Positions 763 through 22,037 of a stretch of DNA of 24,308 bases are shown piece after piece (position 1 is the stretch's first letter; the number at the start of each line of letters is the position of its first letter). Made by a program: the position numbers and the translations under genes. The DNA is taken from positions 1-24,308 of IMG/VR virus record IMGVR_UViG_3300036828_000358. One strand, given 5' to 3'. Source of the DNA: a virus. Below the pieces are notes generated by a model. It worked only from the letters and a program-made list of their open reading frames with translations, made no database searches and was not told the DNA's origin.

Positions 763-803
763 GTGTGACGGTGTGACGGAGGGTCGGCGCGACGCGGCGG
801 GGG

Positions 804-3398
804 TTATTCGAACCCCGTGCAGGTGTAAGCAATTGTGTCCGCTGCGCTCGCCGTCCCTGTCAGGGTGAGGAGTGACCCGGAGGCAGTCGCTGCGAATACG
901 GTGCTCTTGGTCTCATCGGTAGCATGGCAGGCCGGGGCATTCGTCCAAGTCGCGCCAAACGAGATTACGCAAGCCGAGGAGCCACCCGTCCCAACAGTCA
1001 CCCGCCCCATGCTATCCGTGCCGGCGACTGAGGGCGAACCGCTGCCGCAGCCGGAGGAGATGGACGGCGCTGTCGCAGCGCCGTTATGGTAGGCTAGATG
1101 GGTGTTACCCGACGAGCTGCTGGCGCCGATTACGAGCTCCGCGGATGGGTTGTTCTGGCCAATGCCAAGCTTCCCTATGTTGGTGAGCACCGCACGGATG
1201 CCGGCGCCAGAGGTCCAGAAGGCAAGCGATCGCGCGGGGGTGCTAGAGCTGGTGTTGTTGTAGAAGATGGCGCCGTCATTCGCGTTGAGAGGATTGGCAA
1301 AGACCAACCCCTGCGCATCGCCCGACGCCGAGGGGGACAGAAACGTAAGTTTGGCGTTTGTCCCGGAGCCCTCGATGTTGGGGCCGGCGGTATTGTACGT
1401 CCCGGCGGCCACACCAGACGCACCATAAGCGCCTATGACCATGCCACCCGGGTGAAACTCCATCTGCCCTTGCGGGGACGAGTCGTTGAAGATCTTCGCG
1501 TGGACTTCGTCAGTCGTGGCCGGTGTGCCGAGCATGAAGGTGGAGTTCGAGTCGTTCATCGATCCGTTAACGTTGATCGTGTTCCGACCAGCGTTGTCAT
1601 CGAAATTCACGACCCCGCCTTCGCAGTCCTTTACGGTAGTGAAGATATCATTCTGCCCTGAGATCAGGCCGGCCGTCGCGTCGCCGATCTGGAAACAGAC
1701 CAGAGCATTAGAGTTCTGCGGATTACGGTAATACGATCCACCGATTATGGTGTTGTTCGTCGAGCGCATCTTAACCGTGCCGACGCTAGCCCCTTCCCCG
1801 GTCGAGTTGGCCAGAAAAGCATTGCCATCTAGGAGCCAGCTCCACTGCGGCTGTCCACCCACCGCCGTGGCCCAGACGTGCGAATTGGTGACCATCCCGC
1901 CGGAAGAGCGCGTGCCGAACCAGATGCCCTGACCACCACCCTGCCCGGCGTTGATGGCGAGGACCTGGTCTAGGCGCTCGTCGTGCGGCCCGTTGAAGTA
2001 GATGTTGTCGGTCCCGTAGCCCACGGTCTGGTAGGAGGTAACGCGATACCAGGAGGCTTCGAGAGAGCTGCCGAGGGAGGTGCTCACCCCTCCCGCGGTT
2101 CCCCACTCGCTCCAGATGTTCCGTTGGTTGGCATTCCAGACCTGGATATCCTCAAACAGAGGGCGTGCACCGTAATGGTCGATGACGTCGGTCACGTTCG
2201 GTGCGTTCGCGGCATTGCCGTTGAACCGCATGTGCATCAGCGAGACACCGATCGTGCCGTTCGCCGAGTTCGTGCCTACCAACGACGCGAAGCCGCTGCT
2301 CTGAATCAGAGGGCCGGTCAGCGCGCTCGTCGCCCACAGGACCGAAGTCTCTGGGCCGTCACCTAGCAGGGTCTCCTTGCTGTAGTAGACGATCGGCGAG
2401 CCGGTAAAGCATGTCCCGGCCGGAAACCGCAGAGTGCCTCCCGCGGTTGATAGAGCCGTCGTGCCCGCATTGATCGCGGTCCCGTTGTCCGTGCCATATT
2501 CCCACTCGGTGGCGGTGGTAACGGTAGTCGACGCGTTCGCCGCCAAGGTTGCCGTGCTCCCAGATACGCTAGAGATAGTCGTGATCAGGGGATTGGTGCT
2601 GAATGTGGGGGTGACGACGAGGCCGGCACCCGACCCGGACGAGGAAGTTTGCGTCAGCGTGCCGGGAAGCGAGCCATTGGTATAGGACCCTGGGGCCTTG
2701 ACGATGACGGTGGCAGCCTGCATCACCACAGTGAGCTGGGCCCCGACCAGGCCAGCACCGGTGACCGGCTCGGCTGCGATAGCAGTGGGGTTCTGGACGT
2801 AGCTGCCGGCCACAGTGATCGACAGGACAGCGCTGATCGCGCCGCCGCCGTTGACCGTGACCGAGGCTTGGAACTTGGTCGTGCCGCCGCCGGTCGTGCC
2901 TGTCACTGTCTGCGTGCCGGGGGTGCCAAGAGTGCCCGACGTCCCGCCAGGTACTGTCGCTGAGGCCACGCTAGTCGTCGCGACAATCCATGTTGACGTC
3001 CCGTCGGTCGCTGTGTCCTGCGGCGCGTAGACGGTCCCAGGGGTACTCACGGCAGCCGAAAGCAGGCGCGATGTCGCTCCCGCGCCGGCGATACTGATGT
3101 ACTTACCAGCATCACCCGATGCGAAAGTCACTGCGGTAGAAGTGAAGGTGTTGTGACCGGAGGTGATCGACCCGTCGGAAGCGGTGGACACCCCATCGCA
3201 TTTGCCGCCAAAGTCGACGACGTTGAGGACGCGGGCGCCAAAGTCGTTGAGCGCGCTCGTCGTGGTCCCGCCGGTCGGCGCTATGCGCGCGGTCGAGCCG
3301 CTCGATGCGGTGCCCGACAGCGGGCCGCTCATGTTTTGAGCCAGCGCGGTCGCGGCAATCAACGAGGCGACGAGCGGGCCCCACAGCAGGTAGCGCAT
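804..3398 (-). CDS. Tail spike with signal-peptide-like N-terminus and beta-helix domain
   Basis: 864 residues, ATG at 3398 with GAGG 5 bases upstream. Residues 1-20 resemble a Sec signal peptide (ATALA before Q). Residues 21-58 are the anchor segment shared with the left spike. The FGGKCDG motif near 62-69 opens a beta-helix. Residues about 150-270 contain two copies of an AGSYxxxP...GxGAGL-type repeat typical of phage fibres. The parallel helix probably spans about 320-640, judged from spike-like phrases such as FPAGTC (Cys330) and LLGDG. The last about 85 residues, with several Cys and a TWTNAPAC motif, resemble a C-terminal module common in phage tail proteins. Codon use past residue 70 is visibly less GC-biased than in neighbouring genes, which suggests a recombined body on a resident anchor. 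Likely a receptor-binding or depolymerase spike. No catalytic residues can be assigned. Confidence 0.85.
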   Translation of the reverse strand: MRYLLWGPLVASLIAATALAQNMSGPLSGTASSGSTARIAPTGGTTTSALNDFGARVLNVVDFGGKCDGVSTASDGSITSGHNTFTSTAVTFASGDAGKYISIAGAGATSRLLSAAVSTPGTVYAPQDTATDGTSTWIVATTSVASATVPGGTSGTLGTPGTQTVTGTTGGGTTKFQASVTVNGGGAISAVLSITVAGSYVQNPTAIAAEPVTGAGLVGAQLTVVMQAATVIVKAPGSYTNGSLPGTLTQTSSSGSGAGLVVTPTFSTNPLITTISSVSGSTATLAANASTTVTTATEWEYGTDNGTAINAGTTALSTAGGTLRFPAGTCFTGSPIVYYSKETLLGDGPETSVLWATSALTGPLIQSSGFASLVGTNSANGTIGVSLMHMRFNGNAANAPNVTDVIDHYGARPLFEDIQVWNANQRNIWSEWGTAGGVSTSLGSSLEASWYRVTSYQTVGYGTDNIYFNGPHDERLDQVLAINAGQGGGQGIWFGTRSSGGMVTNSHVWATAVGGQPQWSWLLDGNAFLANSTGEGASVGTVKMRSTNNTIIGGSYYRNPQNSNALVCFQIGDATAGLISGQNDIFTTVKDCEGGVVNFDDNAGRNTINVNGSMNDSNSTFMLGTPATTDEVHAKIFNDSSPQGQMEFHPGGMVIGAYGASGVAAGTYNTAGPNIEGSGTNAKLTFLSPSASGDAQGLVFANPLNANDGAIFYNNTSSSTPARSLAFWTSGAGIRAVLTNIGKLGIGQNNPSAELVIGASSSSGNTHLAYHNGAATAPSISSGCGSGSPSVAGTDSMGRVTVGTGGSSACVISFGATWTNAPACHATDETKSTVFAATASGSLLTLTGTASAADTIAYTCTGFE

Positions 3399-3460
3399 GC
3401 GAACCTCGTTTGTTGGCCCGCAGGGCGCGCGGCGCGGCGCGCCCAGGGGTGTTATCGGGT
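3193..3460 (-). repeat. Spike 5' module, copy B (leader + N-terminus)
   Basis: Partner of copy A at 494-762. The two have the same layout of leader, ribosome site, signal-like peptide and anchor codons, with scattered substitutions and one codon missing here. Both copies are in direct orientation about 2.7 kb apart, so recombination between them would delete the 864-residue spike body or fuse the two spikes. Confidence 0.9.
3423..3444 (-). other. GC hairpin in leader of 864-residue spike
   Basis: Perfect 8-bp inverted repeat GGGCGCGC / GCGCGCCC with a 6-base loop, in the 169-base gap between the upstream tail gene and the spike ATG. No T tract follows. It corresponds in position to the hairpin at 721-742. 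The rest of the gap (3445-3567) shows no gene and no convincing promoter. Confidence 0.5.
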
Positions 3461-3567
3461 GCTGGCGGTGTGTCGGGAGGGGTCGGCGAAGGTGCCCTGT
3501 AGCGCCCCCGTAGCGGCCCCTATGCGAATGTCGGGATCAGCCGGTTACGAGCCTCAAAACCCGTGGC

Positions 3568-4662
3568 TCATCGGGTGCCGGCGATCGTCCCGAAGACCCC
3601 GGCAATCGTCGTGTCGACGGCGGCGATCGCGTAGCACCGCAGCCGGTCGCCGGCGGGCAGCGTGAAACCCGCCGATACCGAATAGGTGCCGGTCGTGGCG
3701 GCCGAGTTGATCGTCAATGTGCCGACCGCCGTTGGCGTCCCGGCGTGGATCGTCTGGAAGTGCAGGGTGACGGTGGCCCCCGGGGCGACCTCGCAGCCCG
3801 GTGTCGGGCTCGTCGCGAAGTTCGCCGGGAAGGTCAGGTCGACCGGCGCTTGGACGTCGAAGATCTCGTAATTGCCGTCCCACGGGTCGGTCGTCATCTG
3901 GGCGAACGTGCCGCCCACCGAGAACGCCTGAAACCACTTGTAGGCGTTCTTCCGGCCGAGCCCGGTCAGCGTATAGGTGTAGAAGGCGACGTCGGCGATC
4001 TGCTGCGCGGCACCGCCAAGAGTGTTGAACGACGGGAATTTGAAATAGAGCGTGGTGCCGACGAGGTTCGGCGGATACTGCTGCTGAAAGGTCGAGCCGA
4101 CGATCCGGCCGAACATCGTGCCGATCGCGTGGCTGCCGATCGGCGTCCCGTAGCAGCCGCGGCGGATATAGGTGCCCAGGTCGTAGTGAAAGGCGCTGGT
4201 CAGGCTCGCCGCACTGAAGGAGATCAGCTCGCCGTCGCAGTAGCTCAGCGTCAGGAAGTCATCGGCGTCCTGCATCGTGCCGGGAAGCAACTGCGAGAGG
4301 CTTTCGGTCAGGTTGACCGAGAGCGTGTGCGTCGTGTCGGGGTCGGATCCCGAAGCGAAGACCGCGGTCAAGACACCCTGGATGCCGCCGGCGAGGATCG
4401 TGCCGATCGGCGTGTAGCTCGTGTTGTCGACGCTGACGTTGACCGTGCACCCGCCCCAATTGGGGCTCGCCCCGGTGGCGATGATCCACAGCAAGAGGTC
4501 GGCGTTGCTGAGCGGAAAGGGCGGCTCGAAGATGATCGGCGGGTTGGTGTCGCCGGGATCGGCGTTGATCTGCGGGCCGATGCCGGTGCCCCTCGTCGTC
4601 GTCTGCCGCGGGTAGATAAACGCCGTCGAGACACCGCTCGGGCTAATCGGGGGGAGCGCCAT
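3568..4662 (-). CDS. Tail tip protein resembling the C-terminal part of J/host-specificity proteins
   Basis: 364 residues. The ATG at 4662 overlaps the upstream stop as TGATG, so translation is probably coupled to the hub gene. Residues about 50-185 hold the pattern NWGGCTVNVSVD...Y..IG...G.LTA, then a LP...D..DFLTLSYCDGELISFSAA stretch, then LGTYIRRGCYGT. I recognise this block from the C-terminal half of phage-tail_3/gp15-type host-specificity proteins, where it is usually fused to the hub. Residues about 200-265 (TLYFKFPSFN...) continue that theme, and about 270-364 are a beta-rich end. It probably completes the tail tip with the 736-residue protein. The call rests on motif resemblance only. 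Confidence 0.7.
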   Translation of the reverse strand: MALPPISPSGVSTAFIYPRQTTTRGTGIGPQINADPGDTNPPIIFEPPFPLSNADLLLWIIATGASPNWGGCTVNVSVDNTSYTPIGTILAGGIQGVLTAVFASGSDPDTTHTLSVNLTESLSQLLPGTMQDADDFLTLSYCDGELISFSAASLTSAFHYDLGTYIRRGCYGTPIGSHAIGTMFGRIVGSTFQQQYPPNLVGTTLYFKFPSFNTLGGAAQQIADVAFYTYTLTGLGRKNAYKWFQAFSVGGTFAQMTTDPWDGNYEIFDVQAPVDLTFPANFATSPTPGCEVAPGATVTLHFQTIHAGTPTAVGTLTINSAATTGTYSVSAGFTLPAGDRLRCYAIAAVDTTIAGVFGTIAGTR

Positions 4663-6872
4663 CAGCGGCCTCCGGTGGGTCGAAGCATGTGCCCGGTGGT
4701 CGACCGCAGGCTGCCGGCGATATTGGGGACCGTGGGGTCACTCCCCAGCACCGCGCTAAGCCCGCTGATCGACACCACCGGTGCATCCGAGGTGATGCCC
4801 CCGCCCCACGGGACTGCCCCGTCCGGCATTGCGCAGGCAAAGGGGCCGCTCAGGTTGAGGACGACTTCTTGCGGGCCGGCGCCGCCGAACCCATAGAGCG
4901 GGCCAAGACCGGAGTGGCTTTCCGAGCCCGGGTTCCAGTAGCAGCCGGAGACGACGATGTAGAAAGGCTGCTTGGTCCCAAAGCCGGTGATGTCATACCC
5001 GAAGGCGGGCATGGCGAGCGTCGACTGCCCACCGCTGTTAAGGGTAGAGGGGGCCTCTTGAAAGGCGTTGGTGTTGTACGTGTTGTCGCCGATCCATTCC
5101 GGGGAAACCCCGCCGCCGCAGGTCTTCCAGAAGAAGTCTCCGTTCACCGTGTCGACGGCAAAGCAGTAAGTGGTCGGGACGCCATTGGGGTAATACGGGA
5201 TGCCGGCGCCGGCGTTCTCGTTGACGCCGAACTTGGTGTAGCCGCTGCCAAAAAACGCCGCGTCGTAGAGGCCCACACTGCTCGGGTCATTGCCGCAAAA
5301 CGCCCCGTACACCAAGGTCCCTTCGTCGCCTCCCGGGCCGGCGGTCGGGGACCACAGCGGAAAGTCGCCGCTGCCAAAGCCCAGCCGGATCTCCGAGAGC
5401 GCGTAGCCGTTGCCGTGCAATTGGAGGATCGTGATCTCGAAGTAGACCAGTGGCGGAAGCGGTGCGCCCTGGCCTTGCTGGATCTTCTCGGCCTCGACGG
5501 TCAGGTCGCCATTGTCGTTCTCTTCGATCGAGAGGACCCGCACCGCCTCCTGCTGAAGATAGAGGTCGCCCGCCTTGCCGGTGAGCAGGACGATGTCCAT
5601 CGGTTCGAGGAGCGCCTTGTCCCAGCCGATCTGAAACTTGTAGGGGCTGTTGCGGATATACTGCGACCGCTGCAAGACCAGCTGTGCGGCGACCTGGGCC
5701 GAGGTGGCACTGGCAAAGCATTTGCCGGGCAGGCTGTTGCCGATGCGCAAGCCGTATTGGTCGATCGCCCCTTGGTCGTACACCGCCAGGATCGTCGAAT
5801 TGTAGAAGTTGTCCCGGTCCAGGTACTCAATGGAGAACCAATTGAAGGCGTCGGCCGGATTGGTGCGGGTGACGATGATCGGGTCGTCCTGGCCGACCTC
5901 GGGATTGGCGGTGTCGTCTTGGTGCGGGTGCCACGGGATAAAGTCGTCGTCGGTCAGCGAGTAGACCGGCACCAGGTTGGGGTTCCAGGTGGCGCCGTTG
6001 CCGATCAGCTGCAGGTCGCCGTAGGGGATGATCTTTAAGAGCTCGCCGGAGACGACAATCGCGCTGTTGAGGATGTTGACCAGGCCATCCATCCACTGCG
6101 CGGCGCGCTGCTGCCCGTCGAGCGAGACCGAGACCAAGAGACCCGCGGCCTGGCAGTAGTCGCCAAAGGTGGTGCCGTCGCCCGGCGCCAGATCGTCGAG
6201 ATTGTCGCCCGGAAAGCCGGCGCCGTAGCGGATGTTGGTCAGAAAGTCGCGGATCACCAGGCCGGGGTTGGCGTCGAACGGGAAAAACGGGCCACCGGTG
6301 TCAAACAGGAACGCGCTGAGCTCAAAGCCGAGGTTGGGGATCGCCGGCGACATGCCGAGGATCATCGGGGTGCCGGTGATCCAGCAGGTGCCCGAGTAAT
6401 TGATCCCCGAGCCCAGCCCGTCAAACGTCGGGTCGCCCATCTGGCCGTCTTGGCCGGCGTAGAAATTGAGCTGGGCGGCCGAGAACGCCTCGACCGAGGA
6501 ATTGGCAAAGACCTGGTTGCCGTCGTTAAAGGTGATCGGCCCCTGGCACATGCCAAAGGCGACGTCGACCGAGAAGTTGGTGCCCTTCTTCGAGCCCTTT
6601 TTGCCGCCGCCCTTGCCGCCGCCGCCGCCCTTGCCGGATTGCACCGTGTTGGTGCCGCCGAGCGGCAGCGGTCCCACACCCTTGCCCTTTTTGCCGCCGC
6701 CCGGGCCCATGTAATCGCCGAGCGCGATCAAGTTGACCTGTTGGCGCACGGTGCCGTAGCACAACGGCAAGACCGAGCCGACTTGGCTGGTGTTGTAGCG
6801 CAGCGCGTTGAGCGACTGGTTCTGCCACCCGTTGTTCTGCATGAACGCGGTTTGCGTGCGGAAAAGGCTCAT
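4662..6872 (-). CDS. Central tail hub / host-specificity protein (phage-tail_3, gp15-like)
   Basis: 736 residues, ATG at 6872, 12 bases after the NlpC/P60 stop. The N-terminus (LNALRYNTSQVGSVLPLCYG) and the later VDVAFGMCQGPI are typical of tail hub proteins that close the tail tube. Residues 58-97 form a Gly/Lys-rich loop of the kind seen in this family. Residues about 200-470 (VIRDFLTNIRYG, IVTRTNPADAFNW, MDIVLLTG, VLSIEE) match the lambda J-like hub core. Residues about 473-736 begin YFEITILQ and contain a D.V.G.FFWKTCGGG...W pattern. They may be a SPRY-like sandwich domain used for receptor contact, but that part is tentative. Its usual C-terminal continuation is encoded separately just downstream. 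Confidence 0.82.
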   Translation of the reverse strand: MSLFRTQTAFMQNNGWQNQSLNALRYNTSQVGSVLPLCYGTVRQQVNLIALGDYMGPGGGKKGKGVGPLPLGGTNTVQSGKGGGGGKGGGKKGSKKGTNFSVDVAFGMCQGPITFNDGNQVFANSSVEAFSAAQLNFYAGQDGQMGDPTFDGLGSGINYSGTCWITGTPMILGMSPAIPNLGFELSAFLFDTGGPFFPFDANPGLVIRDFLTNIRYGAGFPGDNLDDLAPGDGTTFGDYCQAAGLLVSVSLDGQQRAAQWMDGLVNILNSAIVVSGELLKIIPYGDLQLIGNGATWNPNLVPVYSLTDDDFIPWHPHQDDTANPEVGQDDPIIVTRTNPADAFNWFSIEYLDRDNFYNSTILAVYDQGAIDQYGLRIGNSLPGKCFASATSAQVAAQLVLQRSQYIRNSPYKFQIGWDKALLEPMDIVLLTGKAGDLYLQQEAVRVLSIEENDNGDLTVEAEKIQQGQGAPLPPLVYFEITILQLHGNGYALSEIRLGFGSGDFPLWSPTAGPGGDEGTLVYGAFCGNDPSSVGLYDAAFFGSGYTKFGVNENAGAGIPYYPNGVPTTYCFAVDTVNGDFFWKTCGGGVSPEWIGDNTYNTNAFQEAPSTLNSGGQSTLAMPAFGYDITGFGTKQPFYIVVSGCYWNPGSESHSGLGPLYGFGGAGPQEVVLNLSGPFACAMPDGAVPWGGGITSDAPVVSISGLSAVLGSDPTVPNIAGSLRSTTGHMLRPTGGR

Positions 6873-9109: not shown

Positions 9110-10075
9110 TCAGATCGCTGACTCGGGCGGCGGGATGTCGGGGAACCCGCCAAAGCGCTTCTCGTTCTGCAGCAGCATGCAGTTCGTCAGCGTGTGGTCG
9201 CAGCCCGGCAATAATTGAAACGTGTCGACGCCGACGACGACCGGGAAGATCCACGGCTTGAGGAAGAAGATGCCGGAGGGTGTGGTCGTGCTGTCGAGCT
9301 TGCCGATGTTGCGGGTGTAGCCGGTGTTGGCGCCGGTCAGCCCGACCAGCGAGCCGTTGTCGTAGGCCGTCGTGGGCGACGGCACGATGCTGGCGTAGAT
9401 CGTGTTTTGGTCGGAGCCGACATCGGCGGTGATCGTCGCGGCACCAATCCCGGTCGCCACCCGCAAGGCGTTGAGGCCGTTGACCCGGTCATAGCCGCAC
9501 TGCCCTTGGTTGACATAGTCGGGCGGCTCGCCCGGCTCGCCAAAGATGTGCGTGCACGCCGCCTGAAAGAGCCGGCGCGGCATCTGCACGGTTAAGAGAT
9601 CGGTCAGGCCGTTGACCGTGATCTTGGTCTTGGTGCGGCCGATCTCGACATCGCCGACCCGGCCAAAAAACCGGCTGATCGTGCCGACGACGGTCGCCGG
9701 CGGGGTGATGTAGGCCCGCCACACCCGGCACCAGGCCCCGTCGAAGAGCCCGACCGAGAGTGCTTCCTGCCAGGTCAGATCGCCGCCCAGCCCGAGCACG
9801 TCATCGGGGCCGGCGTAGATCGTGATGTCGATGTGGCTGACTTCGGTGCCGATCTTCTCGACGATCTTGGTGCGCTCGAGCGGCGGCCCGAGCTTGAAGG
9901 CGAAGAACGGCCCGTCGGTGTTCGGCGCGCCGGCGTCGAGCTCGCGCTGGTAGCTTGTGTAGCGCAGCGTCTCGCCGCCCTGCAGCGTGAAGGTGTAGAG
10001 GTCGGCCATCTTGACGTTGACGTCGGGACCCCACGACGCCAGCAGCGCGGCCAGTGCGGGTCGCACCGGTCTCAC
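9110..10075 (-). CDS. DUF2163 / BR0599-family tail hub protein (gp13-like)
   Basis: 321 residues starting at GTG 10075, which overlaps the upstream stop as GTGA, so translation is probably coupled. The N-terminal part (DLYTFTLQGGETLRYTSYQ, then GPPLERTKIVEKIG) and the middle (DITIYAGPDD, WRVWRAYITPP-type region, IGRTKTKITVNGLTDLL) follow the DUF2163 family. The C-terminal LLPGCDHTLTNC...RFGGFPDIPPPES contains the family's hallmark Cys pair and GFP.IP ending. In the gene transfer agent this protein is a distal tail/hub component next to DUF2460, and the same neighbours occur here. No sign of truncation. Confidence 0.88.
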   Translation of the reverse strand: MRPVRPALAALLASWGPDVNVKMADLYTFTLQGGETLRYTSYQRELDAGAPNTDGPFFAFKLGPPLERTKIVEKIGTEVSHIDITIYAGPDDVLGLGGDLTWQEALSVGLFDGAWCRVWRAYITPPATVVGTISRFFGRVGDVEIGRTKTKITVNGLTDLLTVQMPRRLFQAACTHIFGEPGEPPDYVNQGQCGYDRVNGLNALRVATGIGAATITADVGSDQNTIYASIVPSPTTAYDNGSLVGLTGANTGYTRNIGKLDSTTTPSGIFFLKPWIFPVVVGVDTFQLLPGCDHTLTNCMLLQNEKRFGGFPDIPPPESAI

Positions 10076-10686
10076 AGCACCACCGAGGTCAGCTTGACCG
10101 TCTTGAGTTGCCAGAACCCGTTGGCGAACTCCTCGAAGTCGAGCGCGTCCGGCATCCAGACGCGGAAGTAATAGCTGTAGTCGACCGTGACCACGACACC
10201 CATGCCGGGCGGGCTAGTGAAGGTCAGGAGCCCGGTCAGCGGGTCGACCGTATAGGTGCCGATCGTCGGCGTGCCGTTGAGGTAGACCGCGCTGATCACA
10301 TTGGGCGCGATGATCGACTCGACAAAGCCGCCCGGCACCAGCTCGCGCACCAGCTGATAGACCATCGTCGTGTCATCGCCGACCCCGATAATCTGGCCGG
10401 CGATGTGATCGTCGCTCGGGTCGTCGAGCAGAAAGGCGTCGAACGCGCCGGCCGATGTGTTGAAGAAATCCATCATCGTGCGCAGCTCGGTCGGGCTTTG
10501 GTAATTGCACCACGCGAAGTCGTGCAGCACCGCGTAGGTTAATTTGAAGGTCCAGATCGGGTTGACGTAGTCGCTGGTGCGCAAGGTGCGGCCCGAGATC
10601 GAGCGCTGCATCCGGGTCGCCCAATTGGGGGTCTTGGTCACGGTGTAGGCGAGGCCGCGAAAGACCGGATAGGTTCGCTGTGAAAT
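10072..10686 (-). CDS. DUF2460 distal tail protein (gp12-like), probable ATT start
   Basis: The first conventional start is GTG at 10641 (189 residues), but it has no ribosome site. The frame stays open upstream, and those codons read ISQRTYPVFRGLAYTVTKTP. That fits the family N-terminus (FP.LPGL...VTKTP.W). The only plausible initiation codon after the upstream in-frame TAA is ATT at 10686-10684, with GGAGG at 10699-10695, 8 bases away. That gives 204 residues. The rest follows the family: SGRTLRTSDYVNPIWTFKLTY, MMDFFNTSAGAFDAFLLDDPSD, then Y.VDPLTGLLTF. It forms the distal tail ring joining tube and hub. The stop overlaps the DUF2163 start. The start overlaps that of the divergent 63-residue gene. 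Confidence 0.85.
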   Translation of the reverse strand: MSQRTYPVFRGLAYTVTKTPNWATRMQRSISGRTLRTSDYVNPIWTFKLTYAVLHDFAWCNYQSPTELRTMMDFFNTSAGAFDAFLLDDPSDDHIAGQIIGVGDDTTMVYQLVRELVPGGFVESIIAPNVISAVYLNGTPTIGTYTVDPLTGLLTFTSPPGMGVVVTVDYSYYFRVWMPDALDFEEFANGFWQLKTVKLTSVVL

Positions 10687-10876
10687 GGCGCGGCCCTCCG
10701 AAAGCGAGTTTCCGGTTTACGAAGACGAGCGCCTGGTCGGCAAAGCGCGCTCTTGGTGGAGCGATGACGGCGCGGCGATGGTGGAATTCACCCCGCCATT
10801 GCCAAGCGGCTACAAATTCAGGATTTCGAGCGTCGGTCGCGACGCATGGTTCGAGATCTGGCGCGACGGTGCTTAG
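10685..10876 (+). CDS. Small hypothetical protein, opposite strand
   Basis: 63 residues from ATG at 10685. The sequence has a balanced, protein-like composition (EFPVYEDERLVG, ARSWWSDDGAAMVEFTPPL, YKFRISSVGRDAWFEIWRDG), suggesting a small beta-rich domain. No minus-strand gene covers it apart from the first codon of DUF2460, so it is not a shadow. There is no clear ribosome site. Its ATG overlaps the proposed ATT of the divergent DUF2460 gene, and its stop is 3 bases from the parS-like palindrome. Family not recognised. A spurious frame cannot be fully excluded. Confidence 0.55.
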   Translation: MARPSESEFPVYEDERLVGKARSWWSDDGAAMVEFTPPLPSGYKFRISSVGRDAWFEIWRDGA

Positions 10877-10879
10877 GCT

Positions 10880-10895
10880 TGTTCCACGTGGAACA
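10880..10895. promoter_or_regulatory. parS: parS-like ParB-binding palindrome
   Basis: TGTTCCACGTGGAACA is a perfect 16-bp palindrome. It fits the bacterial chromosomal parS consensus TGTTnCACGTGnAACA at every fixed position. It lies between the 63-residue plus-strand gene and the tape measure stop, in one of the few non-coding spots of the region. ParB is a CTP-dependent clamp that loads at such sites and spreads along neighbouring DNA. No parA or parB is present in this window, so a host or distant phage ParB would have to act. No second copy is seen here: the other CACGTG found, near 8036, lacks the palindromic flanks. Confidence 0.75.
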
Positions 10896-10909
10896 CTTCG
10901 GCCTTGGCG

Positions 10910-13900
10910 TCAGCCGCCCGGCGTGTGGCGGCTGTTATTGCGGTGCGCCTTGAAGAACGATTTCGCGATCGCGTCCGAGTGGTTCATCAGAAACTGCGCG
11001 CCGCTGCGGCTGTCGATCGACGAGAGATGCACATGCGTGTCGCCGTAGCTGATCGACGGCCCAGCGTTGCCCGGGCCGCCCGCGGCCGCCTCGCGCAGAC
11101 CCTGCGCGTAGGAGCTCGGGATGACCTGCTCGCCTTGGTGCAGCATGCCCATCATGTCGTGATCGACTTCCCAGGCACCGGACGCAAAGTGCGGCATCCC
11201 GGTCATCATCCGCATGCTTAGGATCTTGCCGATCCCGCCGCTGCCCGGCGCTTCGCCCTGAGCCAAGAGGTTTGAGAGGCCGCGGGCCTCGCGCGCCGGC
11301 AGGACCATTTCCTGCGGGTGGGCGATGATCAGCCGCCCGCCCTTGCCGTCGCCGACCGCACCGCCGGCGCCGACCATCATGCCGCCGGCCGCCGAGGGGA
11401 TCACACCGCCCTTTTCGAGACCGAAGAGCCCGCCCAGCATTCCGAAGATCTGGCCAAACCCGCCCATCCCGCCGCCGCCGCCACCGCCGCCGCCGAGACT
11501 GCCGAGCAGCCCGCCAGCTTTGCCGAGCATCCCGCTAAAGCCGGAAAGCCCGCTCGAGGCGTTGTTCGTGCTGCCCGTCATCTGGGTGAGTGCGGGTGTG
11601 GCTTGATTGGCCGCCGCGGTCATGCCTTGCACGCCGTTGCCGCCGGCCCCGCCGCCGCCGCCAAAGAAATTCCAGCTCGCCCCACCGCCGCCGCCACCGG
11701 GGAGCGGCGTGTCGGTGCCAGGGGTCAGAAACGGCGTGTTGCCGCCGCCACCGCCGCCGCCTCCGCCAAAGAGCTTGCCAAAGATACCGCCGAGACCGCC
11801 GCCGCCGCCGCCGCCGCCGCCCTCCTTGTCGCCGCCGCCAAAGGCCCCCATGAGCTTCTGCAGGCCCATCAAGAGCCCGAGCAGCTCCATCATCTTTTTG
11901 ATGTTTTCCTTTGCCTGGGCCGGCTGGATCGTCGGCTTGATAAAGCCGAGCGAGGACGTGGTCGTCTGCTCGGGGATCACCGTCTCGCCTTGGTGCACGA
12001 CCGCCAGCCCGGTCTGCGAAATCGTCCCGCCGCCGGCGAGGTGCGGAATGCCGAGCATGCTGCCGAGTTGCGCGCCAGGATCATCGCCGCCGCCACTGCC
12101 CCGCAAACGGCTCATCAGGGTTTTGAGCGCACCGCCCGGCGCGCCGGCCAGCAAGTCGGCCCCCTGGAAGAAGTTGCCGCCGCCGCCGCCCGGCAGACCG
12201 CCGCCCGATCCGCGGCGCAGTCCATGCTCATCGAGGAAGCCGATCGAGTTGGCCACCGGGTCGTCGACCGAGTTGTCGCCGCCGTAGCGGTCGTAGCGCG
12301 GACGGGTGCTGTTTGGCAGGGTCTCGCTGTTGCGGATGATCGGGGTGCCGTCGAGACCCATCTCGACCTGGTCGGCCGGGATGACGAACTCGCCATCGTG
12401 CAGCATCGCCAGACCGTCACCGTCGACCGGGCCGCCGTCGTCAAACTCCGGGATGTCAGCGCCGCCGCCGGCGAGTTGGGTTGCCGGCGGTGCCGGCGGG
12501 CCGATGGGTTCGGGCGGGCCCTGGACCTCGGGCTCGGCCTTTTTGTCTTTGGCCGCGGTGTTCTTTTCAACCGCCTGCGTGTTGTCCTTGGTGGCGTCGC
12601 TGTTCTGTGTGGTCGCGGTCACGACCGGCGTGGTCCCGGTGCTCGCTTGGGCCGTCGCGCCTGGGCCAGCCCACTCAAAGTGCATTGGGTCTTTGCGGTC
12701 GTGCCAGTCGCCGCCCCAGCTCAACCCGTGCCTGGCCGCCATCTCCGAGATGTTCGCCGGCAGGTCGGTCCGGAGCGGACCGGTCCCCATCGGGTTCTCG
12801 TCGGAATTGACGTCGATGGCGTTGCCAAAGGCGTGCTGGCTGAGCTCGGTGCCGCCGCGGATATTCCGCAGATTGTAGCCGCTGCTCTCGCCGCCTTTGA
12901 TCGGGTAACCCGAATGTTCTAGTTCGTCGATGAACCCCTGAAAGGCAGCCGCCGACTGTTTGTTGACCTGAAAATTGGCGCCAGACGGAGAGCTGATCGT
13001 AACTAGGTTGGCTTCGGCCCAGCCAGGTGAGTTCGGATTGCCAAAGTTGCCCGTATTCGCGTAATTGGCCGACCCCTTGACGTCGAGCTTGCCGGCATCG
13101 GCGGCTTTGGCCAAGGCGACCAGTGCCGGGCCATACTCGTTCTTCTGACCGGCATAGGTCGCCAGTGCCGATCCCTGTCCCGAATAGGCGCCGAGCGCGT
13201 CGACCCACGAGCCCATCCTGGCGTGGAGGTCGCTCAGGTAATGCGCGGCACCTTCGATCGAGCTCGCCGCGTCATTGACGTCGACGTGGTATTCCTTGGC
13301 GGTCTCTGGGCTGAATTGCCCGAGCCCGCGGTGATTGCCGGTCACCTCGTTTGGATTAAAGCTCGACTCGGCGCCGATCAGATTTGACAGGATCTGCGGC
13401 GGGACCCCGTATTGCGCGGCCGCGGCGTTGATCGTATCGGCATAAGGACCGGTCGCCGGTGCCCCCGCGTTGCCACCGCCGCCGCCGCCACCGCCTTTGC
13501 CGGGGCCTGGTCTGCCGCCAGTCCCGCCGCCAGTCCCACCAGCACCTCCGCCGCCGCCGGCACCCGCGCGCAGCGAGTCCGCGAGCTGCTGCAGTGCCGT
13601 GGTGTTGGCGCCGGTCGACCGCGTGTTGTCGGCGGTCGCCAGGCGCAGCGCCACTTGCGCGTCGTTGCTGCCCTTTTCGCCGAGCCCCAGGAAATCGCCG
13701 ATGCCGGTGCCCTCGAGGAGCTTTTCGAGGGTCTTCTGCAGGATCTTCTTTTCCTGCTGCTCGACGAACTTCTGGATCGCCTGACCGATGGTCTCCTTGC
13801 CCTGGACCACACCCGTGATCGCGTCGGCGAGACCGTCGGCGACTTCCTTGTCGGCGGCTTTGGAGGCTTTGACGCGCTCCTCGTTGGCCTTTTCCCAGAT

Positions 13901-16864
13901 CTCGCGCTCTTTGTCGGCTTCTTTCTCGGCGACCTCGAGCGCCCGATCGGCGATCTGGTTTTCCAGCTCCTCGATGCCTTTGGCTTTGTCGGCCTCTTGC
14001 TGGAGGATCTGTGCGGTCTTCTGCGCATGGTCTTCGACGATCCGGGCTTCGGCTTCGCCGGCGGCCTGCGCGGTGATGTCGCCCGCCTGGTGCCGGCGCT
14101 CGACCGCGCGCAATTGGGCCTGCTCCTGCTGGTCGAGGACATGCCGCTGCGTCTCGAGCTGCTTGATCGCCTCTCGGGTCTGCTTGTCGGCGTAATTCTG
14201 CTGTTGCTGGTCGAGCCGCTTTTGCGCGTCGTCGTGCTCGCCCTTGCCCTTCAGGTCCTCGATCTTCTGCGCTTCGGGCGAGAGCCGCACACCGGCCGCT
14301 TCGCGGGCCGCATTCTCCTTGGCAATGATCTCGTCGATCAGCGCGATGCGCTCGCGCAACAGCCGCTCGATCTCGGCTTCGTTGTGCCGCGCATTGGTGA
14401 TCTCGTCTTCGATGGCTTTCAGACGCGCGGTTTTTTCGGCGTCGATCAGCCGCACGACCTCGGTCATGTGAGAGCGTTCCGCCGAGGCGACGCGTTCCTT
14501 CTGCGCCTGGACCGCCTGCTCGCCCACCAGGTCCTTTTGGTGCGCTTCCTCGATCTGCTCGAGGATCTTGCGCTCGGTCGCCAGCCGCTCGGCCGAGCCG
14601 GACTCGGTCTGGTCGGCGAGTGCGCGCTCGGTCGCGATGGTGATCTGCAGGCGCTCTTCGGCGGCCTTGCGTTGGGCGTCGGCGACGGCATTGATGCGCT
14701 CGATGACCTGCGGCGTGTCGTCGGCCAGCTTTCCCGCTTCTTCGGGGCTGCGGCCTTGTTGCGTCAGGCGCTCGATTTCGAGGTTGCGGACCGCGTCGAG
14801 CTTCTTCTTCTCGATTGCGATGATCCGCTCGGCATTGTGCTGGTGGGCGCGCTCCTCCTGGTCGAGGGTGCGCAATGTCGCCTGCAGGGCCTCGTCTTGG
14901 GCCTGCTTTTTGACTTCGGCGAGATGCCGATCGGCGGCTTCGACCGCGGCGGCATTGGCCCGCGGCTCAGCCTCTGCGGCCGCCGCATGGATCGCCCGAT
15001 TGACCTCTTCCTCGATCGCGATGCGTTGCGCGCCTGATCGGCCGGCTTGCGCCTCGGCCTCGCGCATCTGGTCGGTCCAGGTCTTGAACTCCTGTTCGCG
15101 CAAGGCGCGGACCGCCGACTGGTATTGGTTCTCGGCGGCCAGTGCCGCCGGCGTGTTGCGCGCCAGCGGGGCGGCTTCTTCGCGCGCTCGCGGCAATGCC
15201 TCGGCCGGGCTGATCTGGTCGCGCTTGGCAATGTCGAGCGCCAGAACCTTGGCGAGCGCCTCGGTCTCGTAGCGCACGATTTCGTCGGCCATTTTGCGGC
15301 GGATCTCGATGACGGCCTGCGCATTGTTGCGCTGCGCATCGAGCTCGCCCTGCAGCCGCGCCATGGTCGTGGCGTGGTCTTCGGCCTCGCCGGCGCCGTG
15401 CGTCTTTTCGGCTTCGAGCTCGACCTTCCGCTGCGCCGCCTTGACGAGTGCCAGCTGTACCTGCAACTGCGCAGCGGCGGCATTGGCGCCGGCCAGCTGT
15501 GCGCCTTCGATCTGGCCTTCGAGCGCGAGCTGTGCGGTTTTCAGCGTGTTAAGCTGCAGCCCGAGCGTTTCGCGCTTCTGCTCCTCTTTGGTCAATTCCG
15601 ATGCGGTCGTGACCCCGGCAGTGATGTTGGGCTCTTGCGTCGAGCGCTCTTGCTTGTCGGCGAACTGGCCGAGCTTTTTGCGGATGTCTTTGGCTTCGGC
15701 TGGCGGCTCGATAAAGCCGCCGCCGCCCTCCGCGGTCGCGTAGGCGTATTCCTTCCACGCGTTTTGAGCCTTTTGCCGCGCTTCGCCTTGGGCGGCCACC
15801 CCTTTGAGGATGGCCTGGGTCGCCGCCTCAAACGCCTTGGGGACCTGCCCCGCGTCTTCGAGGCTCTTGACGTAGTCTTTCAGCAGCTGGCCGTTCTCTG
15901 CCAGCACGCCGTTGAGATCGAGGATCTCCTCGCCCCATTTGACCGCCCCCGAAGGGGTTTTGAATGCAGCGACGACCTCTTTGACACCTTCGGCGCTGCT
16001 GCTGCTCCTGAAGCCCGCCATCGCCTCGCCGATTTTGGCGATGGATTCCTGCGAGCCCAGCGCCGCGGACGGCAGTTGGCGCAGCTCGTCGACGATGCCT
16101 TTTACCGCGCTGCTGGACTCGTGATAGGTGCTCTGCAGTAGCTGACCGAGACTTTTGGCCTGTTGTCCCGCCGCTTCAAACGAGGCCCCGCCCTGGACCA
16201 GGCGATTGGTCTCGTCGCGCAGCGCCAGGATGCCTTCGACCGCCTGATAAGCGGCATAGCCGATCGTCGCCAGCGCGCCGACCCCGGCCGCCCCGACGAC
16301 GCCCCACACGCCGCTCAGCTTTCCCAGGATCAGGTGCAGCGCGTTGCTGTATTCGAGCAGCACGACCATCGAGCCGGCGATGCGCGAGAAGCGCCCTTGC
16401 ATCGCCTCGTGACCCATCACGATAAATTCACGGGTCGCCGCCGATGACGCAAACTGCACTTTCTTGTGGGCTTCCGCGATCTCTTCGAGTTGGGCGGGGA
16501 TCTCGGAATAGTACCGAGAGCCCGCCATTGCCTCCATGTCGGCCTTGGCATTGGCCATGGCGGCCGCCGCCAAGGATTTGCGCGCCACGATCTCGGCGTT
16601 GATCCCGGCGATCGCCTGTTGCCGTGCGGCAACTTCAGCCTGCAGCGCAGTGACGCCGGCCGCTGCCTCGGCCGCGGCTTTGGCCTGCGCGCCAAACCCC
16701 TGGGTTACCTTGTCGACATCGGCCGAGGTCCTGCGCAGTTGCGCCTCGAGCGATGCGAGTTCCGTCTGTAATTTCTTTGTCGCGTCGGCCGATTGATTGA
16801 CGCCGCCGGTAAAGCCAGTGGCCTCAGCGGTGATTTTGACATTGATCGAAGAGCCATCGGGCAT
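10910..16864 (-). CDS. Tape measure protein with lytic transglycosylase and M15-type peptidase domains
   Basis: 1984 residues, ATG at 16864 with GGAGG 6 bases upstream. The N-terminus resembles tape measure proteins. Residues about 183-208 are hydrophobic and may span a membrane, and about 430-1090 are a long Glu/Gln/Ala/Arg coiled coil. Two Gly-rich linkers (about 1105-1135 and 1680-1745) break the chain. Residues about 1140-1250 form an SLT domain: YGVPPQILSNLIGAESSFNP with catalytic Glu1166, then GLGQFSPETA. Residues about 1275-1400 match Zn-dependent M15-type peptidases: His1344 and Asp1351 in SQHAFGNAIDV, and His1395 in DPMHFEW. Four copies of an H.GE.VIP-type motif occur near 1486, 1622, 1845 and 1907. 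The protein sets tail length (up to about 300 nm at 0.15 nm per residue, by family rule) and probably opens the cell wall during DNA entry. Confidence 0.93.
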   Translation of the reverse strand: MPDGSSINVKITAEATGFTGGVNQSADATKKLQTELASLEAQLRRTSADVDKVTQGFGAQAKAAAEAAAGVTALQAEVAARQQAIAGINAEIVARKSLAAAAMANAKADMEAMAGSRYYSEIPAQLEEIAEAHKKVQFASSAATREFIVMGHEAMQGRFSRIAGSMVVLLEYSNALHLILGKLSGVWGVVGAAGVGALATIGYAAYQAVEGILALRDETNRLVQGGASFEAAGQQAKSLGQLLQSTYHESSSAVKGIVDELRQLPSAALGSQESIAKIGEAMAGFRSSSSAEGVKEVVAAFKTPSGAVKWGEEILDLNGVLAENGQLLKDYVKSLEDAGQVPKAFEAATQAILKGVAAQGEARQKAQNAWKEYAYATAEGGGGFIEPPAEAKDIRKKLGQFADKQERSTQEPNITAGVTTASELTKEEQKRETLGLQLNTLKTAQLALEGQIEGAQLAGANAAAAQLQVQLALVKAAQRKVELEAEKTHGAGEAEDHATTMARLQGELDAQRNNAQAVIEIRRKMADEIVRYETEALAKVLALDIAKRDQISPAEALPRAREEAAPLARNTPAALAAENQYQSAVRALREQEFKTWTDQMREAEAQAGRSGAQRIAIEEEVNRAIHAAAAEAEPRANAAAVEAADRHLAEVKKQAQDEALQATLRTLDQEERAHQHNAERIIAIEKKKLDAVRNLEIERLTQQGRSPEEAGKLADDTPQVIERINAVADAQRKAAEERLQITIATERALADQTESGSAERLATERKILEQIEEAHQKDLVGEQAVQAQKERVASAERSHMTEVVRLIDAEKTARLKAIEDEITNARHNEAEIERLLRERIALIDEIIAKENAAREAAGVRLSPEAQKIEDLKGKGEHDDAQKRLDQQQQNYADKQTREAIKQLETQRHVLDQQEQAQLRAVERRHQAGDITAQAAGEAEARIVEDHAQKTAQILQQEADKAKGIEELENQIADRALEVAEKEADKEREIWEKANEERVKASKAADKEVADGLADAITGVVQGKETIGQAIQKFVEQQEKKILQKTLEKLLEGTGIGDFLGLGEKGSNDAQVALRLATADNTRSTGANTTALQQLADSLRAGAGGGGGAGGTGGGTGGRPGPGKGGGGGGGGNAGAPATGPYADTINAAAAQYGVPPQILSNLIGAESSFNPNEVTGNHRGLGQFSPETAKEYHVDVNDAASSIEGAAHYLSDLHARMGSWVDALGAYSGQGSALATYAGQKNEYGPALVALAKAADAGKLDVKGSANYANTGNFGNPNSPGWAEANLVTISSPSGANFQVNKQSAAAFQGFIDELEHSGYPIKGGESSGYNLRNIRGGTELSQHAFGNAIDVNSDENPMGTGPLRTDLPANISEMAARHGLSWGGDWHDRKDPMHFEWAGPGATAQASTGTTPVVTATTQNSDATKDNTQAVEKNTAAKDKKAEPEVQGPPEPIGPPAPPATQLAGGGADIPEFDDGGPVDGDGLAMLHDGEFVIPADQVEMGLDGTPIIRNSETLPNSTRPRYDRYGGDNSVDDPVANSIGFLDEHGLRRGSGGGLPGGGGGNFFQGADLLAGAPGGALKTLMSRLRGSGGGDDPGAQLGSMLGIPHLAGGGTISQTGLAVVHQGETVIPEQTTTSSLGFIKPTIQPAQAKENIKKMMELLGLLMGLQKLMGAFGGGDKEGGGGGGGGGLGGIFGKLFGGGGGGGGGNTPFLTPGTDTPLPGGGGGGASWNFFGGGGGAGGNGVQGMTAAANQATPALTQMTGSTNNASSGLSGFSGMLGKAGGLLGSLGGGGGGGGGMGGFGQIFGMLGGLFGLEKGGVIPSAAGGMMVGAGGAVGDGKGGRLIIAHPQEMVLPAREARGLSNLLAQGEAPGSGGIGKILSMRMMTGMPHFASGAWEVDHDMMGMLHQGEQVIPSSYAQGLREAAAGGPGNAGPSISYGDTHVHLSSIDSRSGAQFLMNHSDAIAKSFFKAHRNNSRHTPGG
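11796..11822. repeat. Trinucleotide (GCC/GGC) tract in tape measure gene
   Basis: About nine consecutive GCC units on the plus strand, read as a poly-glycine run near residue 1690 of the tape measure. Shorter interrupted runs of the same unit lie near 11470-11495, 11744-11764 and 13478-13495. Such tracts can change length by slippage in whole codons without breaking the frame. Confidence 0.7.
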
Positions 16865-17765: not shown

Positions 17766-18434
17766 TTAGTCTGGCTTCTCGACGAGGCGGGGGCTGCGTA
17801 TCGGGCTGTCGAGGCGGGCGGCAGTCTGCCGCTCGGTCGCGGACGGGGTCGGCTCCAGTCGCCACACCCGCATCTGGCCGTCATTGTCAAACCCGCCGTA
17901 GAACTCGCCGAGCCCTCTCTTCTTGGCGGTCAGACACGCCGACTTGAGCACGTTTACCGTGACATTGTAGATGCGCCGGCTGTCGCCGACCTTGAGCTCG
18001 GCGAACCCGTATCTGTCCTTTGGCAGCGTCCTGATCTTGCTCGGCGGCACGGGCACGCCGCTTTCGACCTCGCCGATCTCGAGCGGGGATGATCCGACCT
18101 CGACGCGTGCGCGATCAATCAGCTGGTAGCCGCCGGCATAGACGCTGGAGATGGCATAGGGTGTGGCGGTCAGCACCCGGCGCAATTTGGAGATATAGAC
18201 GTCGATGATCTTCTGGTGAGGCGGATTGTCTGGCTGGGCGTTGTAGAGCAGCGCCATAAACGAGTCGCGGGTCGTGTAGTGGCCGCGGCGTTTCCAGAGG
18301 ATCTGCATGACCTCCCAGATCTTTGGCTCGACGTGCTCGGAGCCGATGGTCCTCTGGTCGTGGTCAAACCACGGCGCGGGCAGCTTTTCGCCGGGCCGCG
18401 CGATCTCGGCCTCACAATGTTCGCACAGAGCCAT
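17766..18434 (-). CDS. Winged-helix (OmpR/PhoB-type) DNA-binding protein in the tail operon
   Basis: 222 residues, ATG at 18434, no strong ribosome site. Residues 4-7 form a CEHC motif that could be half of a zinc site. Residues about 33-106 match the OmpR/PhoB C-terminal winged helix: WEVMQILWKRRG, then TTRDSFMALLYN, KIIDVYISKLRRVL (recognition helix) and ISSVYAGGYQLI (wing). There is no receiver domain. Residues about 139-194 (DRYGFAELKVGDSRRIYNV, KKRGLGEFYGGFDNDGQMRVWRLE) resemble a small domain (PF.EL.VGDSF...V..A......F......G.RVWRV) seen in various phage proteins. The gene separates tube from chaperones, which are usually adjacent. It could regulate late genes or bind DNA during packaging. 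Function not known. Confidence 0.75.
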   Translation of the reverse strand: MALCEHCEAEIARPGEKLPAPWFDHDQRTIGSEHVEPKIWEVMQILWKRRGHYTTRDSFMALLYNAQPDNPPHQKIIDVYISKLRRVLTATPYAISSVYAGGYQLIDRARVEVGSSPLEIGEVESGVPVPPSKIRTLPKDRYGFAELKVGDSRRIYNVTVNVLKSACLTAKKRGLGEFYGGFDNDGQMRVWRLEPTPSATERQTAARLDSPIRSPRLVEKPD

Positions 18435-19662: not shown

Positions 19663-20535
19663 TCACCACGCGAGCACGCGCAGCAGCAGCCAGCGGACTA
19701 GCGGCACGGCCATGCTGTTGCCGATCGCCGTGTAGCGCGGGCCATCGCCGGCCGGCTTGCCGCCGTGGCTGACCGCGGTCCAGTCGTCGGGCAGGCCTTG
19801 CAGCCGTTCCCATTCGCGCGGTGTCAGGCGGCGTGGTTCAGGGTCGATAACCAATGGTGCGGCGTCGCCCCGGCCGGTCTGGCCCGAGTGCGCCTTTAAC
19901 GGCGGAACTATCGCGGCCGGCGCGCCACGACCGTTGCGCGCAAAGCGGCTCTCAAAGGTGAAGGCAGTTTCCGGCCCCGTTGGTGCGCGCGCTCGATGAT
20001 CCGAGCACACGCCGTCGCGCTCAAAAAGAACCGCGGCGGCAGGTCGCCAGCCTCCAAGATATCCGACAACGAAGACGCGACGGCGCTGCTGTGGAACTCC
20101 GGTGTGTTGAGCGTCCAGAATTCGGTAGGCGAACCCATACCCGAGTTTTGCCAGCGTCCCGAGGAGGGCACCAAAGTCGCGCCCGCCGTTAGACGACAGA
20201 AGTCCGGGCACGTTCTCGAAGACCACCCAGCGCGGGCGAAGGCGGCCAACCAGGCTGAAGCCGACCGCGGCCAATTGCCCGCGCGCGTCGGCACAGCCGA
20301 GCCGGTTGCCGGCGACGCTGAACGACTGGCACGGCGAGCCAAAGACGACGATGTTGACCGGCTCGATTGCATCCGGATCAATCCTCGTCACGTCGCCGAG
20401 ATTGCGGGTTTTGGGAAAGCGTTCAGCCAGCACGGCGCACGAAAACGAGTCGATTTCGGCACACCAGCGCCAGTCGATTTCGGGTGCAGCGAGTTCGGGC
20501 GCGCCGATCCCGCTGAAGAGCGTGCCGCCGATCAA
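19663..20535 (-). CDS. DNA (cytosine-5)-methyltransferase, phage Dcm-like
   Basis: 290 residues, beginning at TTG 20535, which overlaps the glycosyltransferase stop (TTGA). A longer frame reaches ATG 20748, but those 71 codons are antisense-like Arg/His-rich sequence, while motif I begins right after the TTG. Motif I: TLFSGIGAPELA (5-16), for S-adenosylmethionine. Motif IV: GSPCQSFSVAG with catalytic Cys69. Motif VI: ENV (107-109). Motif VIII: QQRRR (149-153). Motif IX: RRLTPREWERLQGLPDDW (about 235-252). Motif X: AIGNSMAVP (270-278). All are intact, so it should be active. The target-recognition region (about 155-234) is short. No restriction enzyme is next to it, so it is an orphan enzyme, probably protecting phage DNA from host restriction. 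Recognition sequence unknown. Confidence 0.93.
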   Translation of the reverse strand: MIGGTLFSGIGAPELAAPEIDWRWCAEIDSFSCAVLAERFPKTRNLGDVTRIDPDAIEPVNIVVFGSPCQSFSVAGNRLGCADARGQLAAVGFSLVGRLRPRWVVFENVPGLLSSNGGRDFGALLGTLAKLGYGFAYRILDAQHTGVPQQRRRVFVVGYLGGWRPAAAVLFERDGVCSDHRARAPTGPETAFTFESRFARNGRGAPAAIVPPLKAHSGQTGRGDAAPLVIDPEPRRLTPREWERLQGLPDDWTAVSHGGKPAGDGPRYTAIGNSMAVPLVRWLLLRVLAW

Positions 20536-22037
20536 GCGGCGGCCGCGGCCTCGATCGTGTACGAGGAGACGACCGTCTGGCTCTCCTCGATCTCTGCTTG
20601 CAATAGCATTTCGCGCACGGCGCCGATCACCGATGACCAGTCGTTTGGGGCTTCCTGAGTGACCAGCTGCATGGTCGGATACCACGGCGTGTCGGTGCGA
20701 TCGACGAGCCAGCGCCAGCACCGGCGGTAGGGCAAGAGAGCGATGCACGGGCGGCCGAGTGCGCCGGCCAGGTGCAAGGGTGCAGTGTCGACCGAGACCA
20801 CGACATCGACCTGCATCATCGCGGCCGCGGTGTCGGCGAAGTCGCCCAGGTAGCCCGACAGGTCGGGGACCAGGGCAGAGGCACCGTGGCGTGCAATGTC
20901 GCCGACCCGCTCGCCCTTCTGCAACGAGACCAGCGTCACCTGCGGAATGTCGGCCAGCCCGAGGATCTCCTCAAACGGCATGCTGCGTTTCAGGTCGGGC
21001 TCGTAGCCGGGTGATCCGGCCCACACGACGCCGACGACCAGGCGCACGCCCGGCGGGCGGTAGATCGGCAAGCCCGGCACCTCGGGCGCCTTCAGGTACG
21101 GGTCGCCCGGGATCGTCTCGAGGGTCAGATCGAGGAAGGCCGGCACCGATAGCATCGGCGAGTGGTAATCGGCCGGGGGCAGTGGGCCGGTGATGTCGAT
21201 GACCTCGTCGGCTAGTCCCGAGAAGACGGTCAGCCGCATCATCGCTTGCGTGACGGCGGCGACGACGTGGGCCCCGCGATCGCGCAGCCACGGCAGAAAG
21301 CGCATGAACTGGATGGTGTCGCCAAAGCCTTGCTCGTGGTGGACGATGATCGTCTTGCCCTCGAGCGGCTGGCCGGTCCAGCGCGGGATCCCACTATCCC
21401 AGATAGGGTAGTGGAAGAGGTCGGCCCACCGCGCCTCGTGGGCGAGCAGCCCTTCGCCCATGCGCCCGGTGGCCAGCAACGCCAGCCCGAGGTCGCGCTT
21501 GATGCGGTCCTCCTCCGGGGCATGCTTGCGGCCCTCGAAGAAGCACCCGACCGCACCCGTCGGATCGCGTAGACCAAGGCGGGCGAGGCCCAAATTGTGC
21601 CAGATCCCAGCCAGCCCGCGCGGGTCAATCACGTCGTTGGGGTCGACCTGCTCGCCGGCGACGACTCGGGCGGCGTTGCGGGCGATGCGCTCCTCGGCGA
21701 TTTGCTTGGCCCGCCACAGCAACCCGAAGGCGGCGTCGTATTGCTCCATGCGGAAGAGCGTCGTTCCCAGGTTGGCGAGATAGGCCGGGTTTTCTTCGTC
21801 GAGGTTCGCGGCGCGCTGGGCGAGCGCCAGGGCCGCCCGGTAGTGCCGCCGACCGGCGACGATGCCGGACAGCATGGTCAGTGAGTCGCCGTGGTTGGGA
21901 TCGAGCCGCAGCGCCTGGGCGAAGTGATGCTCGGCGGCGCCGACGTCGCCCGTGTCCTGGGCGGCCTTGCCGACGTCGAAAAAGCGTTGCGCGGTCGGAG
22001 CTACCCTGGCGGTGGGGGGCTCGAGAGGATCAATCAC
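20532..22037 (-). CDS. TPR-repeat glycosyltransferase (GT-B, GT9/GT41-like)
   Basis: 501 residues from GTG 22037, overlapping the upstream stop as GTGA. Residues about 15-200 hold four or five tetratricopeptide repeats (for example VGAAEHHFAQALRLDPNHGD at 32-51). Residues about 228-478 form a GT-B transferase part: HHEQGFGDTIQFMRFLP (233-249), VVWAGSPGY (337-345), and VVVSVDTAPLHLAGALGRP (412-430), followed by WRWL and DTPWYP. The SVDTA..HLAGALG block is the donor-binding region in this family. The last about 20 residues are variable. Such proteins transfer sugars to proteins or surface polymers. Substrate cannot be read from the sequence. The gene is joined by stop/start overlap to the methyltransferase. 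Glycosylation of a virion protein or of the host surface are both possible. Confidence 0.88.
   Translation of the reverse strand: MIDPLEPPTARVAPTAQRFFDVGKAAQDTGDVGAAEHHFAQALRLDPNHGDSLTMLSGIVAGRRHYRAALALAQRAANLDEENPAYLANLGTTLFRMEQYDAAFGLLWRAKQIAEERIARNAARVVAGEQVDPNDVIDPRGLAGIWHNLGLARLGLRDPTGAVGCFFEGRKHAPEEDRIKRDLGLALLATGRMGEGLLAHEARWADLFHYPIWDSGIPRWTGQPLEGKTIIVHHEQGFGDTIQFMRFLPWLRDRGAHVVAAVTQAMMRLTVFSGLADEVIDITGPLPPADYHSPMLSVPAFLDLTLETIPGDPYLKAPEVPGLPIYRPPGVRLVVGVVWAGSPGYEPDLKRSMPFEEILGLADIPQVTLVSLQKGERVGDIARHGASALVPDLSGYLGDFADTAAAMMQVDVVVSVDTAPLHLAGALGRPCIALLPYRRCWRWLVDRTDTPWYPTMQLVTQEAPNDWSSVIGAVREMLLQAEIEESQTVVSSYTIEAAAAA

Follow-up and report, generated by a model that had tools for sequence, protein, structure and literature searches.

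A 16-base palindrome lying among the tail genes of a viral DNA record (the window, a linear IMG/VR record of 24,308 bases) is identified here as a parS site of the chromosomal type. The assignment is well supported and upholds the one made in an earlier note on this DNA; it draws on a perfect match to the consensus, a near-copy in the closest relative, enrichment of the motif across phages, and the absence of ParB from most of the phages that carry it. Taken together with the non-coding position of the site, the same evidence leads us to favor, with moderate confidence, the view that the palindrome is a real parS that would be recognized in trans by the chromosomal ParB of the host, so that the phage genome would be positioned or segregated when the host is not lysed. 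Of our observations, the wide spread of orphan parS sites among phages is the stronger finding; the conservation of the window site itself is thin.

The site and its surroundings

The 16-mer TGTTCCACGTGGAACA lies at 10880–10895, coordinates and letters being exact. It matches the ParB-binding consensus, TGTTNCACGTGNAACA, at 14 of 14 fixed positions with no mismatches, and with its bases at the two N positions it forms a perfect 16-bp dyad, as the earlier note had claimed. Nowhere else in the 24,308 bases of the window is there a parS match at three or fewer mismatches. Given the composition of the window, 2.3e-5 exact matches to the pattern would be expected in this length (2.4e-6 for the particular 16-mer TGTTCCACGTGGAACA), which bears out the further claim that a chance match is very unlikely. 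Like bacterial chromosomal parS sites (TGTTNCACGTGNAACA), the window site combines 14 fixed positions with a free Y..R pair. Those sites commonly lie near oriC, however, whereas this one lies on a phage tail module, between tail genes and without ParB_N. A place near oriC and parAB is usual for chromosomal parS but is not strictly required.

The features of the region are as follows.

9110–10075, minus strand: baseplate hub protein, phiJL001 Gp84 N-terminal domain / BR0599 (domain matches)
10072–10686, minus strand: DUF2460 tail protein; homology with the closest relative (L002, below) suggests translation from an ATT codon at 10686 that follows a GGAGGG ribosome-binding site
10685–10876, plus strand: 63-aa ORF (P0001), possibly not a gene; no known family, no relative found
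10870–10909, minus strand: what is left of a small ORF, ...AKAEVFHVEQA*, with sequence similarity to the 3' end of the L002 76-aa ORF (...QAKVFHVKQFTPEA*)
10877–10909, no strand: gap of 33 bases between convergent stop codons, holding the parS palindrome (gene map)
10880–10895, no strand: putative host ParB loading site, parS-type palindrome TGTTCCACGTGGAACA, unique in the window; the motif is enriched in phages
10910–16864, minus strand: tape-measure protein with SLT transglycosylase and M15 peptidase domains (domain matches)

The palindrome thus occupies a non-coding spot of the tail operon, as the earlier note had it: the gap runs from the stop codon of the plus-strand ORF at 10685–10876 to that of the minus-strand tape-measure gene, in a window of which the gene set covers about 92%. 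The same note spoke of a small plus-strand gene beside the site. An ORF is present there, but its status as a gene is unproven because its 63-aa product has no family in Pfam or PHROG and no relative was found in IMG/VR; its codon-position G+C (0.58/0.53/0.75) is only weakly gene-like.

The genes around the gap form a minus-strand tail module comprising the tape measure (SLT, M15), the DUF2460 protein, a Gp84-like hub, and a Phage-tail_3 protein. The DUF2460 gene has no ATG, GTG, or TTG where the start of its L002 homolog aligns but does have an ATT preceded by GGAGGG, and it may therefore start with ATT. The host of the window phage is probably an alphaproteobacterium, judging from the tail proteins (Rcc01698, phiJL001 Gp84, and DUF2460) and from phage matches, only some of which are alphaproteobacterial. 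Farther along the minus strand are a protein at 17766–18434 with an OmpR/PhoB-type DNA-binding domain (Trans_reg_C), an unusual neighbor for tail genes; a C-5 cytosine DNA methyltransferase at 19663–20748, whose relatives include Roseobacter, Sinorhizobium, and Caulobacter phages; and, at 20532–22037, TPR repeats followed by a weak match to glycosyltransferase family 9. Domains of the Trans_reg_C kind occur in the alphaproteobacterial regulator CtrA. No integrase was seen among the window genes scanned, and a search of the window found no tRNA. Scanning genome contigs for related sequence gave a single match of 39 residues, in Parcubacteria, and no DNA relative was found in the phage collection.

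Because the window is a linear record of 24,308 bases, the viral genome is probably incomplete, which affects how the lack of a partner protein is to be read. ParB_N (PF02195) was not found in the 24-kb window. The earlier statement that no parAB is present thus stands for ParB, within this fragment. The note had also proposed looking for parB elsewhere on the phage: the fragment has no ParB_N, but it may be part of a larger genome with a ParB gene outside the record.

The junction in related phages

The closest relative of the window is contig 3300036828_001037 (L002), whose hub and DUF2460 proteins are 94% and 89% identical to those of the window. Its tape-measure/DUF2460 junction likewise contains a site, TGTTTCACGTGAAGCA, with one mismatch to the consensus; about 4e-5 such sites would be expected in 225 bases. 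At the free positions the two phages differ symmetrically, T..A to C..G. Upstream of the sites, the DNA of the two phages is more alike than 99.6–99.8% of random position pairs; downstream it is not. In L002 a 76-aa ORF (...QAKVFHVKQFTPEA*) ends in the near-site; the window frame, ...AKAEVFHVEQA*, runs in the same direction but has no usable start codon. We infer that parS was present in a common ancestor of the two phages and that, in the window, most of the small ORF has since disappeared while the palindrome was retained.

The shared frame could also be taken to mean that the resemblance to parS is a coincidence at the protein level, the DNA being leftover coding sequence for VFHV[E/K]Q that came to look like parS through G+C-rich codon usage. 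Such an origin would account for the L002 near-site ending an ORF (...AKVFHVKQFTPEA*) that has its counterpart, in the same direction, in the window. Yet in the window the gene body is gone while the palindrome is perfect, no homologs of the L002 ORF were found outside the L002 contig, and the enrichment of parS across phages (below) would be left unexplained. We therefore consider a coincidence of this kind distinctly unlikely.

Beyond L002, no parS at two or fewer mismatches was found in the 22 other related records, and the junctions of more distant relatives differ. In L287 and L288 only 14 bases separate stop from start, and L139–L143 and L146 have unrelated inserts. A terminator-like hairpin, AACAAGGC...GCCTTGTT, stands in place of parS in L139 and L140 (around 3000–3144 in L139). 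The absence of the site from these records indicates that it is not essential to this phage group and, together with the differing junctions, that it is either recent or easily lost. The earlier note had held that absence or erosion in all close relatives would speak against the site; L002 keeps it with one mismatch, and the 22 others lack it. Given the degree to which the flanking genes have diverged, a single relative that keeps the site, one mismatch off, does not make a strong case for selection.

parS sites across phages

A collection of 50,697 deposited phage records was searched with 30-mer queries, each consisting of parS or a permuted palindrome within the same flanks. The 30-mer around TGTTTCACGTGAAACA had matches in 371 records and that around TGTTCCACGTGGAACA in 100, whereas control 30-mers with permuted arms or core had matches in 5, 1, and 4; the counts of 371 and 100 include related phages repeatedly, the AT-rich query corresponding to 33 first names of organisms. 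In IMG/VR, the parS pattern occurs in at least 120 contigs, as does the exact 16-mer TGTTCCACGTGGAACA alone (also at least 120), against a total of 38 contigs for the control palindrome TTGTNCACGTGNACAA, in which the CACGTG core was kept and the arms were permuted (16 variants). Y..R, the preference of chromosomal parS sites at the free positions, is found in 138 of 145 viral parS sites among the matches listed but in only 10 of 38 control sites. The viral sites are also underrepresented in long ORFs: 76 of 145 among the matches listed lie inside ORFs of at least 100 aa, compared with 33 of 38 control sites (Fisher p = 8e-5). The motif is thus strongly over-represented in phages relative to permuted palindromes. 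In the literature searched, mostly outside subscription journals, we found no earlier description of the breadth of orphan parS across phages. On some viral contigs, three to five exact sites are crowded into about 1 kb (L048, 2657–3444; L104, 10535–11462; L118, 240–961).

These comparisons bear on whether the palindrome might act without ParB, as an RNA hairpin or a bidirectional terminator where two genes converge. Its location between convergent stop codons would suit such a function, and as RNA it folds into a 6-bp stem with a 4-base loop (z about -2). However, its flanks contain no T tract, no terminator-like match or Rfam family was found at the palindrome, only a few of 242 viral parS palindromes among the matches listed extend 3 bp or more beyond the 16-mer, and control palindromes show no enrichment although they fold just as well. 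A role as RNA is, on this evidence, highly improbable. An intrinsic terminator in particular, taken as a G+C-rich stem followed by a T run, is unlikely here, as no T run flanks the palindrome.

We examined 15 named phages, chosen from BLAST matches to the parS queries. Twelve of them have exact parS sites, 31 in all. They include the Pseudomonas phages NoPa, UAVern, and ventosus; the Arthrobacter phages Joann and JasmineDragon, Gordonia phage Harambe, and Microbacterium phage KaiHaiDragon; the Bacillus phages B103 and vB_BcoS-136 and Lactobacillus phage Lpa804; and a Xenohaliotis phage, whose host is alphaproteobacterial, with three copies of the exact 16-mer of the window, TGTTCCACGTGGAACA. 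Twenty of the 26 sites that could be placed are intergenic, although the AT-rich flanks of one query may favor intergenic sites. An inovirus with a 5.9-kb genome (PQ006135, L298) has six exact sites within 635–5643, five of them intergenic, and no ParB. In Harambe (L282) the sites at 2798–2813 and 3219–3234 lie inside longer perfect palindromes of about 36 and 28 bp. ParB is mostly lacking from these genomes: fourteen of the 15 named phages lack ParB_N, and no match over the cut-off was found in 48 of 50 large parS-bearing IMG/VR contigs among the matches listed, a third contig having a weak match.

If the site does bind host ParB, what might it be used for? One possibility is local. Clamps of host ParB could lower or insulate transcription at the tape-measure/DUF2460 junction, or separate the small convergent ORF from the tail operon. 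Host ParB reduces the expression of parS-adjacent genes in Pseudomonas aeruginosa (PMC5521831), plasmid ParB silences flanking genes (PMC7333895), and the site sits exactly between convergent stop codons. But no promoter-like site was found near the palindrome, and the surroundings of parS in other phages are varied and unrelated, with as many as six copies per genome, a pattern more easily reconciled with a role for the genome as a whole than with control of a single gene. We judge local use unlikely. A second possibility is titration, in which the site would sequester or misdirect host ParB (or SMC) and disturb chromosome segregation of the host during infection. The many genome copies of late infection would multiply ParB sites, and multi-copy parS phages exist; one site per genome would nevertheless be a weak sponge, and titration seems very unlikely for the window phage.

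Proposed loading of host ParB onto phage genomes

Among the proposed uses, segregation or positioning by host ParB is favored by analogy with two precedents. The first is phi29, whose genome itself carries parS sites. Phages of this type, like the window phage, carry host-type parS on the genome. They encode no ParB, and host ParB acts on their DNA; the phi29-like phage B103, with two exact sites, has no ParB_N, and the window fragment has none either. The phi29 genome is entrapped in the spore by host Spo0J/ParB, as related in the part of PMC9437464 that cites Meijer et al. 2005. The analogy is not complete, because phi29 infects a spore former and enters the spore, whereas the window phage has alphaproteobacterial-type tail proteins and one site only. 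The second precedent, SGI1, uses stolen parS sites with the ParABS of its helper IncC plasmid (PMC10954446). As proposed for the window phage, it is a mobile element that has parS and relies on ParAB from another replicon; it differs in being an integrative element with the plasmid-type parS of its helper, whereas the window is a phage with the chromosomal consensus. A Par-type centromere on a phage genome is also found in phages and phage-plasmids that encode ParABS, such as P1 and extrachromosomal mycobacteriophages. These, however, have genes for ParA and ParB as well as centromere sequences of their own, whereas the window fragment has no ParB_N. On these comparisons the window site would be a further case of the phi29 kind, a parS on a phage that looks real.

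Established ParB biology suggests how such a site would work. ParB-CTP dimers of the host would nucleate on the phage parS, clamp shut around the DNA, and then slide along the neighboring phage sequence. Once coated, the genome would become cargo for host ParA and possibly a loading site for host SMC. In this way it could keep a defined cellular position and be passed to both daughter cells as long as the host is not lysed, be it in a carrier state, during delayed lysis, or as a plasmid-like prophage. As ParB spreads for kilobases, it need not matter where exactly parS lies within the tail module, and the gap between convergent genes may simply be a place where the palindrome leaves coding undisturbed.

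The over-representation of parS in phages without ParB suggests that phages borrow the segregation machinery of their hosts. More generally, orphan chromosomal-type parS could be a convergent phage strategy for attaching the genome to host chromosome segregation, of which the window is one instance; such a strategy would span filamentous inoviruses, phi29-like phages, and large tailed phages of Pseudomonas, actinobacteria, bacilli, and alphaproteobacteria, and we regard the case for it as evenly balanced. If host ParB loads on the window site, the phage DNA would be marked as segregation cargo, which would help to account for the persistence of non-integrated phages in dividing cells. With parS enriched tens-fold in phages of which most have no ParB, what had been an old, single observation on phi29 and Spo0J becomes a testable general hypothesis.
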